Source: Phytoactinopolyspora limicola (GTDB taxonomy: Bacteria; Actinomycetota; Actinomycetes; Jiangellales; Jiangellaceae). From it: DNA of 64,000 nucleotides. Where the stretch lies: positions 186,001 through 250,000 of the forward strand of contig NZ_JAAOEN010000003.1 of NCBI RefSeq assembly GCF_011320225.1, read 5' to 3'. The position numbers were made by a program, and so were the translations under genes. Numbering within the stretch: the first letter of the stretch is position 1; each line of letters begins with the position of its first letter. This document shows, one piece after another, positions 2,830-5,957 of the stretch. Below the pieces are notes generated by a model. That model was not told where the DNA came from. It searched no databases and saw only the letters and a program-made list of their open reading frames with translations.

Positions 2830-2910
2830 CCAACCCGCCAGACGGCACACGATTCATCAGGCAGATCGCCTCATCAGGCAGATCACCGCGACGGTACGAC
2901 GAGGGTGAGA

Positions 2911-3837
2911 ATGACACGACACCAGCAGATCGCGCTCAGGATCGACGGACTGCGTATGCGCTACGGCACGGCTGAGATCCTGACGGACGTCACGTTTCAG
3001 ATGCGCCATGGCGAGATCACGGCCCTCCTCGGGCCCAATGGCGCCGGCAAAACCACCACGATCGAAGTCCTCGAAGGATTCCGGCAGCCGTCCGGTGGTC
3101 AGATCGAGGTGCTGGGCACCGACCCGGCCCAGGGCGGCTCCCAATGGCGCGCACGGGTGGGCGTCGTGCTCCAGTCATGGCGGGACCACGCACGGTGGCG
3201 GGTTCGGGAACTGCTAGCGCACCAGGGCAGGTACTACACCCGCTACGCCACCGATCTGATCGAACGACCCTGGGATGTCGATGACCTGCTGGAGGTGGTT
3301 GGCCTGACCGATCATGCCGACCAGCAGGTCAGGCTGCTCTCCGGCGGGCAGCGGCGGCGGCTGGACGTCGCCATCGGGGTGGTGGGCCGGCCCGAGTTGT
3401 TGTTCCTTGACGAGCCGACCGCGGGCTTCGACCCCGAGGCCAGGCGGGAGTTTCACGACCTGGTGCTACGGCTGGCGGCGGAAGGTGACACAACCGTCCT
3501 GCTCACCACCCACGACCTCAATGAGGCTGAGAAGCTGGCCGACCGCATTCTGATCCTCGACCGTGGACGGATCGTTGCCGACGGTACGCCGAGCGAGCTT
3601 GCCCGGCAGATCGTCGGCGACGACCTTGTGCGGTGGACCCACAACGGCCAGCGGTATGTACGTTCGACCACGGACTCGACATCATTCATCTTCCAACTGT
3701 TCCAACAGTATGGCGACGCCATCACCGACCTCGAAATACAGCGGTCGTCATTGGAAGACACCTATCTGCACCTCGTGCGTCAGGCCGAAGCCGGCGCCGG
3801 GACCACCACGTCGCCAGAGTTGGGGGAGGTTGCCTGA
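2911..3837 (+). CDS. ABC transporter ATP-binding protein
   Basis: A protein of about 308 residues and a single nucleotide-binding domain. Walker A is GPNGAGKTT near residue 40, the signature is LSGGQRRRLDVAI near 145, and Walker B is LLFLDEPTAGFDP near 166, followed by an H-loop (LLTTHDLNEAE). The C-terminal extension resembles DrrA/CcmA-type exporters. GTG 2905 is in frame, but ATG 2911 has better spacing from GAGG. The 80-bp gap after the Clp-N gene contains a 14-bp direct repeat (TCATCAGGCAGATC at 2854 and 2871) and no obvious terminator, so co-transcription with the HTH/Clp-N pair is likely. The partner permease overlaps its stop (TGATG). Confidence 0.9.
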   Translation: MTRHQQIALRIDGLRMRYGTAEILTDVTFQMRHGEITALLGPNGAGKTTTIEVLEGFRQPSGGQIEVLGTDPAQGGSQWRARVGVVLQSWRDHARWRVRELLAHQGRYYTRYATDLIERPWDVDDLLEVVGLTDHADQQVRLLSGGQRRRLDVAIGVVGRPELLFLDEPTAGFDPEARREFHDLVLRLAAEGDTTVLLTTHDLNEAEKLADRILILDRGRIVADGTPSELARQIVGDDLVRWTHNGQRYVRSTTDSTSFIFQLFQQYGDAITDLEIQRSSLEDTYLHLVRQAEAGAGTTTSPELGEVA

Positions 3838-4682
3838 TGCCCGGGAGCACCAGGACATTACGCACGGGGGTCGCCCGTGGCCTGGTCGAGCTACGCCAGG
3901 GTTTCACCGGTGTTGAGCTGGCGGGTCAGCTGCTCTGGCCCATGGTGACGCTGGCCGCGCTCTTTCTCGTCCGGAACCGGAGCGCCGGCGACAGCGACGT
4001 CAGCCTGGGTGGCTGGGCTTTGCCTAGCGCCCTGGGGATGTTCGTCACCTTCGGCATGCTCCTGATGGTGCAGCATCTCAGCGCGGAGCGAGAGGATGGC
4101 ACGTTGCTGCGTGCCAAGGCCACCCCGCACGGCATCCAGGGCTACTTCATCGGCAAGCTGGTCACCGTCTCGGGAACCATCCTGGTGTACCTGCTGATCC
4201 TGCTTTTACCTGGGCTGTTCCTCGTGGACGGTGTGGTGGTCGGCAGTATTGGCGGTTGGGCCACGCTGTTGTGGGTGTTGGCGCTCGGCCTCATCGCGAC
4301 CCAGTCGATCGGCGTGGTGATAGGTTCGCTGCTTCCCAGTCCTCGGGCCGCGGGCTATCTTGCACTTCCGGTCTTGGGCCTCGTGGGTATCTCAGGCATC
4401 TTCTATCCGATCACGGCGCTCGCGGACTGGGTGCAGTGGATCGCCCAGGTGTTCCCCATGTATTGGCTTGGCCTGGGTATGCGTTCAGCTTTCTTACCCA
4501 ACGACGCCGTCAGTGTGGAGATCGGCGCATCGTGGCGCCACCTGGAAACCGGCGCGGTGCTGGGGGCCTGGGCGTTGCTCGGACTCATCGTCGCACCGGT
4601 GGTCCTGCGGCGGATGGCGCGCCGCGAGTCTGGGTCCCGAGTGGCCGCACGCCGCGAGAAGCTCCTCCAGCGCGTGGGTTGA
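3837..4682 (+). CDS. ABC-2 type exporter permease
   Basis: A membrane protein of 281 residues. About six hydrophobic segments are visible, for example WPMVTLAALFLV, MFVTFGMLLMVQ, ILVYLLILLLPGLFLV and YLALPVLGLVGISGIFYPI. The conserved SAEREDGTLLRAKATP segment is typical of ABC-2 permeases. The ATG overlaps the stop of the ATPase gene. With it, the protein should form a drug or peptide exporter; the substrate is unknown. The gene ends 34 bp before the erm leader peptide, so exporter and erm are adjacent but probably have separate promoters. Confidence 0.88.
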   Translation: MPGSTRTLRTGVARGLVELRQGFTGVELAGQLLWPMVTLAALFLVRNRSAGDSDVSLGGWALPSALGMFVTFGMLLMVQHLSAEREDGTLLRAKATPHGIQGYFIGKLVTVSGTILVYLLILLLPGLFLVDGVVVGSIGGWATLLWVLALGLIATQSIGVVIGSLLPSPRAAGYLALPVLGLVGISGIFYPITALADWVQWIAQVFPMYWLGLGMRSAFLPNDAVSVEIGASWRHLETGAVLGAWALLGLIVAPVVLRRMARRESGSRVAARREKLLQRVG

Positions 4683-4703
4683 GTCCCGGCGTCACAACTG
4701 GGT

Positions 4704-4709
4704 TACACT
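4704..4709 (+). promoter_or_regulatory. Putative -10 element of the erm leader transcript
   Basis: TACACT fits a TANNNT -10 box and lies 7 bp before the leader ATG at 4717. A TTGAGT at 4679-4684 could be the -35, with a long 19-bp spacer. If correct, the transcript starts at or next to the ATG and the leader peptide is translated leaderless. Confidence 0.4.
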
Positions 4710-4716
4710 AGCGCCC

Positions 4717-4779
4717 ATGGCTAGTGCCCCCACCAGCGCCGCCTTCTTCATTCGGCTGCGCCGTTCCGTCACGGCATAA
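4717..4779 (+). CDS. Erm leader peptide (putative macrolide-sensing uORF)
   Basis: A 20-codon frame, ATG 4717 to TAA 4777-4779, that ends FFIRLRRSVTA. It sits 168 bp upstream of an erm gene, inside a region of strong alternative hairpins. The Arg-Leu-Arg triplet matches the macrolide-dependent +X+ arrest motif known from the ErmD leader (MRLR). Stalling of a drug-bound ribosome at this motif would cover the 5' arm of the first hairpin at 4769-4776. Position, length and motif are seen directly; drug-dependent arrest is inferred from the known erm mechanism. Confidence 0.7.
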   Translation: MASAPTSAAFFIRLRRSVTA

Positions 4780-4866
4780 CCTTTCGCCGGCTGTTGAGCC
4801 GGACGTGGGTAGTGCCGTGAACCGCGCCTGTCCCTGACCTGTTTGGCCAGGTCGACGGCGCGGTTC
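4769..4866 (+). promoter_or_regulatory. Attenuator: competing hairpins between leader peptide and erm
   Basis: Hairpin A pairs TCACGGCA (4769-4776, the last leader codons) with TGCCGTGA (4813-4820) and encloses CCGGCT/AGCCGG (4787-4802). Hairpin B pairs GAACCGCGCC (4819-4828) with GGCGCGGTTC (4857-4866) and encloses GACCTG/CAGGTC. A and B share bases 4819-4820. A second GTGAACC directly precedes the erm ATG (4940-4946) and could also pair with GGTTC 4862-4866, so the start can be hidden or released depending on leader translation. No good Shine-Dalgarno sequence is visible at the erm start. Confidence 0.65.
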
Positions 4867-4946
4867 GTCGTGTCCAGATGACGGAGGCGAGCCGGCCCGC
4901 CCAGCCCTGCGGGTCGCTCCCAAGGCTTTCTTGGCTGTGGTGAACC

Positions 4947-5597
4947 ATGTCCGCGCGTACGCGCACACTTTCCTTGCCGGACAACCGATCCGGCATTCAT
5001 CTGCTCAACGATCGTTCGGTGGCCCGACGGCTGATCCGTTCGGCGAACGTCGGCGTCGACGACCTCGTGCTCGAGTTCGGTGCCGGCACCGGCGCGCTGA
5101 CCGGTCCACTGAGCGCCACCGGTGCACGGGTCATCGCGATCGAACGCAACCCCGCGTTCGTCACCCGGCTCGGGCGTCGCTTCGGTGATCACAACTCTGT
5201 CCGGGTGGTGGCCGGTGACGCCCGAGTGGTGCCTCTGCCGCGTCGGCCGTACTTCGTGGTGGCGAACATCCCGTACTCCATCTCGACGAGCTTGGTCAGG
5301 CGGTTGCTGACCCCCGACGAGACCTTCCTGCGATCCGCCGATCTGCTGGTGGAGTGGGGATTCGCGAAGCGAATCACGGCGACTGAACCGCGCGATTACG
5401 AGGTGGCGTGGTGGCAGTTGAGGTTCGAGATGTCGATCGAGCGTCGGGTGGCGCCCACTAGTTTCATACCGGCACCGTCGGTCGCCTCTGCCCATGTGCG
5501 GATCCGACGGCGCCGGGGATTGGACCGGGGAACGGTGCACGCGTTGCGCCTCGAACTGCGTCGCCGGTATGGCGTGTCGCGCCGGCGTCGCCGATGA
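4947..5597 (+). CDS. erm: 23S rRNA (adenine-N6)-dimethyltransferase, Erm family
   Basis: A protein of 216 residues. It has the Erm/KsgA fold motifs: LEFGAGTGALT (SAM binding, about residues 31-41), IAIERNPAF, GDARVVPLP and the catalytic NIPYSIS near residues 109-115. The SFIPAPSVASAHVRI segment is typical of Erm. The enzyme modifies A2058 of 23S rRNA and gives macrolide-lincosamide-streptogramin B resistance. At 216 residues it is shorter than most Erm proteins because the C-terminal domain is reduced; the shortened mycobacterial Erm(37) is a precedent. The C-terminus is very Arg-rich (RRRYGVSRRRRR). A leader peptide and attenuator lie directly upstream. Confidence 0.92.
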   Translation: MSARTRTLSLPDNRSGIHLLNDRSVARRLIRSANVGVDDLVLEFGAGTGALTGPLSATGARVIAIERNPAFVTRLGRRFGDHNSVRVVAGDARVVPLPRRPYFVVANIPYSISTSLVRRLLTPDETFLRSADLLVEWGFAKRITATEPRDYEVAWWQLRFEMSIERRVAPTSFIPAPSVASAHVRIRRRRGLDRGTVHALRLELRRRYGVSRRRRR

Positions 5598-5831: not shown

Positions 5832-5957
5832 CTCCGCTCACTCCGCGACGAGCTCCGCTCACTCCGCGACGAGCTCCGCTCACTCCGCGACGAGCTCCGC
5901 TCACTCCGCGACGAGCTCCGCTCACTCCGCGACGAGCTCCGCTCACTCCGTGACGAG
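5832..5957. repeat. Six tandem copies of a 21-bp unit
   Basis: The unit CTCCGCTCACTCCGCGACGAG occurs six times head to tail; five copies are identical and the last has one change (CGTGACGAG). It lies between the erm hairpin and rarA. The junctions create GAGCTC sites. The frames through it would encode heptads such as LRSLRDE, but no start or ribosome binding site supports a gene. With a period of 21 and no spacers, it is a minisatellite and not a CRISPR array. Confidence 0.95.

Follow-up and report, generated by a model that had tools for sequence, protein, structure and literature searches.

An erm gene in the analysed stretch of the Phytoactinopolyspora limicola genome (64,000 nucleotides, here called the window) is preceded by a short leader peptide ORF and two conserved hairpins. 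With a probability of about 0.72, this arrangement is a macrolide/ketolide-sensing leader-peptide attenuator for the intrinsic erm gene, in which the ribosome stalls at an R-L-R motif and the hairpin designated A is the ON fold. The locus is real, functional-looking and well conserved, and its principle, a drug-stalled leader peptide, is an ordinary one. The unusual features for an erm leader are the probable leaderless start, the RPR and RIR variants of the motif and the class-wide spread.

The erm gene was assigned from the sequence of its product:

4947-5597, + strand: predicted Erm-family 23S rRNA adenine methyltransferase, 216 aa, with a short C-terminal part and an NIPY motif.

The protein scores higher with an Erm model (NCBIfam NF000499, 150.4 bits) than with KsgA (116 bits), and remains below the curated cut-off of 212 bits. 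It is best matched as a member of the Erm family, with methylation of A2058 and macrolide resistance as putative functions. A separate and better PF00398 match elsewhere in the genome is likely the housekeeping rsmA. The Erm proteins of genus g1 (and of G021) match the profile only to about position 175-180 of 244, which indicates a short C-terminal part, and those of genera g2 and g5 match it to 239-242 and carry long basic N-terminal extensions.

The leader and its predicted arrest site are located as follows:

4717-4779, + strand: leader ORF of 20 codons (MASAPTSAAFFIRLRRSVTA) with the stop codon TAA, probably leaderless, with a counterpart in 20/20 orthologous loci.
4753-4761, + strand: codons CGG CTG CGC for R13-L14-R15, the predicted +X+ arrest site.
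4756-4758, + strand: codon of L14, the predicted P site by analogy with Leu7 of ErmDL (PMC8298421).

The leader ends in FFIRLRRSVTA, as the earlier note had read it, and 167 nt separate its stop codon from the erm start. Orthologous erm genes (about 60% identity) were found in 20 of the 22 genomes of the window's family, and all 20 are preceded by leaders of 19-21 codons which end in R-(L/P/I)-R-x3-(T/S/A)-A-stop with a constant spacing between RXR and the stop, for example VANGNYMLGIASMRLRRFTTA (L005), MCASITGTAARRLRHTATA (L008), MGMTDNRAVAFWRPRRSVTA (L037) and MGATNFSAVAYWRIRRHVTA (L029). The first Arg of the motif is encoded by CGG, CGT, CGC or AGG, which argues that the amino acid, and with it the peptide, is conserved rather than the DNA. 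This supports the proposal in the earlier note that RLR is a +X+ motif, with selection acting at the peptide level. The leader of congener L005 contains M-R-L-R, and in one genus R-P-R or R-I-R replaces R-L-R.

In ErmDL, ribosomes with bound macrolide or ketolide are arrested at the Leu codon of RLR; the P site then holds Leu and the A site Arg (PMC8298421). Macrolide stalling on the window leader would follow by extrapolation from this case. The locus shares with the ErmDL-ermD attenuator of Bacillus (RLR class) the short ORF with R-L-R before erm, the R/K-X-R/K motif kept as a peptide and the presumed geometry of P-site Leu and A-site Arg. It differs in that the leader ORF would start at the mRNA 5′ end, in that RXR lies close to the C-terminal end of the 20-codon ORF and in the R-P-R or R-I-R of one genus; the likeness established is that of the motif only, not of the RNA.

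A promoter was identified directly upstream of the leader:

4679-4684, + strand: -35-like TTGAGT, with a 19-nt spacer to the -10 box and without an A-rich WblC/WhiB7 tract directly upstream.
4704-4709, + strand: -10 box TACACT, 7 nt before the leader ATG.

When gaps of 1-20 nt between TANNNT and the start codon were scanned in the loci with RXR leaders, 15, 56 and 5 loci were found at 6, 7 and 8 nt, respectively, and at most 7 at any other gap. Most start sites of the WblC-activated promoters of S. coelicolor lie 7-8 bp after the -10 box (PMC7157823). As the start codon is placed 6-8 nt past TANNNT, the leader ORF is very probably leaderless and translated from the mRNA 5′ end. A -35-like TTG at a spacer of 17-19 is present in 42 of the 73 leader promoters and at 14-16 or 20-21 in none, where L030 entered this count, and the A-tract and GAAAWY counts below, with a wrong start, its leaderless start being GTG. 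The term leaderless, which the earlier note had applied to erm, fits the leader ORF and not erm itself; about 230 nt separate erm from the inferred start site upstream.

Two hairpins follow the arrest site:

4769-4820, + strand: hairpin A (2:3), UCACGGCAU (4769-4777) with GUGCCGUGA (4812-4820); conserved core 4772-4777 with 4812-4817.
4819-4866, + strand: hairpin B, (GA)ACCGCGCC (4819-4828) with GGCGCGGU(UC) (4857-4866); GC-rich stem and moderately U-rich tail.

Compared with 200 dinucleotide shuffles, the region folds more stably (z -4.6). Two details of the earlier reading hold exactly, since the last leader codons do form one arm of hairpin A (4769-4777 with 4812-4820) and the two hairpins overlap by two bases (right arm of A to 4820, B from 4819). 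In an alignment of 18 sequences (A2), each of the 18 loci has standard pairs at all six core positions of A. The core comprises one A-U/G-C compensatory change, which is synonymous in the leader (Ala GCA/GCG) and matched in segment 3, and one U-G/U-A change; the outer pairs at 4769-4771 are not conserved. In hairpin B, 92% of the cells are paired, and an A-U/G-C compensatory change occurs at 4821-4864 (18 loci). For A and B together, 16 double-change cells were counted versus 6.4 in shuffles (0/500), and the covariation score was 0.169 versus 0.118 (0/500), with slid controls at 0.03-0.08. Hairpin B is conserved in 18 of the 20 family loci and absent from the congeners L006 and L007, in which the leader and hairpin A are kept. 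A covariance model of A and B, searched in 198 genomes of the class, matched 15 genomes once each, all of the window's family, which indicates that the hairpins are family-specific and the RXR leader is not. No known Rfam element scored above its gathering threshold.

Further elements concern alternative pairings and the erm start region:

4760-4775, + strand: candidate in-leader hairpin 1:2, GCCGU (4760-4764) with ACGGC (4771-4775); a leader fold whose counterpart is a consensus helix in genera g2 and g5.
4799-4808, + strand: candidate segment 3, GGACGUGGGU, which in the absence of A may pair with ACCAUGUCC (4944-4952), at the erm start.
4933-4952, + strand: small hairpin C, within which the erm start codon lies, UGUG (4936-4939) with CAUG (4946-4949), in the RNAalifold consensus of both alignments.
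4940-4946, + strand: GTGAACC before the erm start codon; of the 8 bases of GGTGAACC (4939-4946), 7 agree with GGTGATCC, which is complementary to the 16S 3′ end.

RNAalifold predicted hairpins A and B from all 18 loci, and from the 14 loci of genera g2 and g5 it predicted the in-leader hairpin 1:2 and a 3:4 helix enclosing B instead. These two folds are mutually exclusive and thus point to an ermC-like logic, for which the alternative helices 1:2 and 3:4 are supported in part, by g2 and g5. Hairpin A provides the 2:3 helix between leader tail and downstream segment that is typical of ermC-type attenuators, and the window switch may work like the ErmD/ErmC leader attenuators. With the four-segment translational attenuator ErmCL-ermC it may share the alternation of 1:2 and 3:4 versus 2:3; it differs in the arrest motif, in an erm ribosome site that is not clearly sequestered in the family and in the strong additional hairpin B between segments 3 and 4. 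The 16S end of this genome is GGCTGGATCACCTCCTTTCT. Pairing of 4799-4808 with 4944-4952 in the window appears only with region 2 masked, and a direct energy test of the 3:4 duplex gave values no better than those of shuffles. Masking under the stalled ribosome raised the predicted accessibility of the erm start in 40 of 51 class loci. In the family it was higher in 11/20 loci compared to the free RNA and in 10/20 compared to a ribosome at the stop codon, and this result, like that of the duplex test, speaks against the attenuator.

Two elements of the earlier note were not retained. The GTGAACC repeat, in hairpin B and at the erm start (4817-4823 and 4940-4946), is present but at chance level (three repeated 7-mers versus 4.2 expected from Markov shuffles) and is shared by only the window and L005 among the 18 loci, so that it was rejected as a switch element. 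A competition between hairpins A and B as the main switch was rejected as well, given an overlap of just two bases and a hairpin B that persists whether the RNA is folded free, with a stalled ribosome or with a ribosome at the stop codon.

For the attenuator, the following course is proposed. The ribosome would load directly at the mRNA 5′ end onto the leader ORF. With a macrolide in the exit tunnel, it would be halted by R-L-R once Leu14 occupies the P site and Arg15 is next in the A site, and would cover the mRNA to about 4772, hiding segment 1. Segment 2 (4772-4777) would be left free to pair with segment 3 (4812-4817) as hairpin A, which would hold segment 3 off the erm start region and allow the expression of erm. 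Without the drug, the ribosome would continue over segment 2 to the stop codon, segment 3 would be free for downstream pairing and erm expression would be low. The toeprint distance from the P site is conventionally +16, and the predicted edge of the stalled ribosome is therefore 4772, where the invariant core of A begins. As the edge meets the core and conservation is lacking in the outer pairs (4769-4771) that the ribosome would cover, hairpin A is more likely the fold that forms on stalling than one that stalling prevents. The simpler reading, in which the stalled ribosome breaks hairpin A, is not supported, because the edge falls at the first conserved pair of A. The core of A occurs in the stalled-ribosome fold of most loci.

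That the gate would be the translation of erm rather than its transcription is, like the drug arrest and the direction of the switch, inferred. The same RXR sensor could act on a transcriptional gate, with hairpin B as an intrinsic terminator and leader stalling permitting read-through by the RNA polymerase. This appears unlikely, but it has evidence on its side. Hairpin B is strong, and its tail contains 43% T versus 17% in the region, a value that is slightly low since the tails of L004 and L005 were taken from a later match and not from hairpin B; a CGCGGCTTTT tail is found in several loci. This T-enrichment makes termination possible as the gate and, together with the two congeners without B, it speaks against a translational attenuator. 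Ribosome-mediated transcription attenuation is also used by actinobacterial ABC-F genes and wblC (PMC12421871). The ABC-F system are5sc resembles the locus in that a ribosome-protecting gene is preceded by a small ORF and hairpins, and differs in that on ORFs of this type lincosamide-type drugs, but not erythromycin, cause stalling at the start codon (PMC12421871). However, B is missing from L006 and L007, a terminator consensus scan found no intrinsic terminator and no alternative pairing was found that breaks B. An antiterminator formed by segment 3 and the right arm of B (7 bp by eye; segment 2 and the right arm share ACGGC) was considered and rejected as too weak against the B stem.

A further reading, in which translation of the leader takes place but WblC/WhiB7 action at the promoter is the main control of erm, with peptide and hairpins being minor or acting via mRNA stability, is quite improbable. 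In its favor, an A/T tract lies just upstream of the -35 box in 47/54 loci of the class, over a background of 1.7%, and in 9/19 of the family, over 1.0%, and a stricter GAAAWY-like pattern was found in 26/54 class and 9/20 family promoters and in 0/96 on the reverse strand. This pattern of the relatives fits the WblC/WhiB7 motif (PMC7157823; PMC3905903), and an Erm(O)-type gene belongs to the WblC regulon of S. coelicolor (PMC7157823). The locus shares with WblC/WhiB7-dependent actinobacterial resistance promoters the spacing and the TANNNT box, and most relatives share the A-tract as well. The window, however, has CGCGTGGGTTGAGT where a GAAAWY tract would be located, about 3 bp upstream of the -35 box, and the A-tract is also absent from the promoters of L006-L008; leader and hairpin A are nevertheless retained in all of these loci. 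Moreover, the RXR motif and the pairing of A are conserved beyond what promoter control alone explains.

Finally, that the leader arose by chance as a small ORF of a GC-rich spacer, with incidental hairpins, is largely refuted: although 35-50% of other small upstream ORFs contain RXR and the GTGAACC repeat is at chance level, the layout is constant in 20/20 orthologs, all leaderless-context ORFs upstream of erm carry RXR (20/20 in the family, 56/56 in the class), only two such ORFs occur on the reverse strand and A and B covary.

The predicted macrolide-sensing leader extends beyond the family. A leaderless RXR ORF within 500 nt upstream of the gene was found at 52 of 70 other Erm-family loci across the class, a sample drawn evenly over a larger group rather than a census, which includes closely related, non-independent genomes and in which a few leader assignments may be wrong. 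On the reverse strand the count was 1/70, and 1.2 were expected from Markov shuffles. In most cases the X of RXR is Leu, Pro or Ile, the residues before the motif are aromatic or aliphatic and the leader is usually accompanied by a WblC/WhiB7-type A-tract, which the window copy lacks. Among L059, L061 and L063-L066, one genus has longer leaders with a conserved GPGALTG tail behind RXR, and another group has the leader about 400 nt upstream of erm (MAAFxAI...RLRS), which suggests further leader sub-types. Genome G122 (C100; L090 and L113) carries two genes of the Erm family, and a separate leaderless RXR leader precedes each of them. The Amycolatopsis relatives L023 and L024 show a compact leader, with 2:3 versus 3:4 helices beside a GGAG site, and this design supports the attenuator reading and is a simple candidate for experiments.

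Knowledge of inducible erm genes comes mostly from Firmicutes, and a few erm genes of actinobacteria have been listed with RLR-type leaders. A survey of 2024 on the regions upstream of erm described uORFs without a universal conservation pattern (PMC11264731). In the open-access literature, with older Streptomyces and Corynebacterium erm papers outside this scope, no paper was found that states leaderless RXR leaders as an actinobacterial rule. The class-wide regularity thus seems under-reported and may be new, with individual RLR cases in actinobacteria being known. The earlier remark that such a design is rarely described in actinobacteria is correct for the open-access papers searched, whereas the arrangement itself is common. 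It is conceivable, and stated here tentatively, that erm in the class is by default, and was ancestrally, controlled by a leaderless Arg-X-Arg switch, which usually follows a WblC/WhiB7 promoter, with loading at the 5′ end without a Shine-Dalgarno sequence built into macrolide sensing; the window's family would then represent a derived form with R-P-R/R-I-R and an extra hairpin. A single pattern, leaderless ORF and Arg-X-Arg, covers most of the sampled class loci and all those of the family, and yields testable predictions on the occurrence of inducible macrolide resistance among environmental and clinical actinobacteria, on whether macrolide sensing is alike in leaderless ribosomes and on whether R-P-R and R-I-R are arrest motifs.

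In the neighbourhood of the locus, a DrrA/DrrB-like ABC exporter pair (2905-4682) lies directly upstream of the leader promoter, and in the four congeners this position is instead taken by an ABC-F gene, of the TlrC/CarA/OleB/SrmB type. No match of this type was found in the window's genome at E 1e-40, and no leaderless RXR leader was found before the neighbouring ABC-F gene. Furthermore, a 120-bp tandem repeat with 2.6 copies (95% match) is located at 508-821, and six near-perfect 21-bp tandem repeats (CTCCGCTCACTCCGCGACGAG) at 5832-5957 lie between erm and the next, rarA-like gene.
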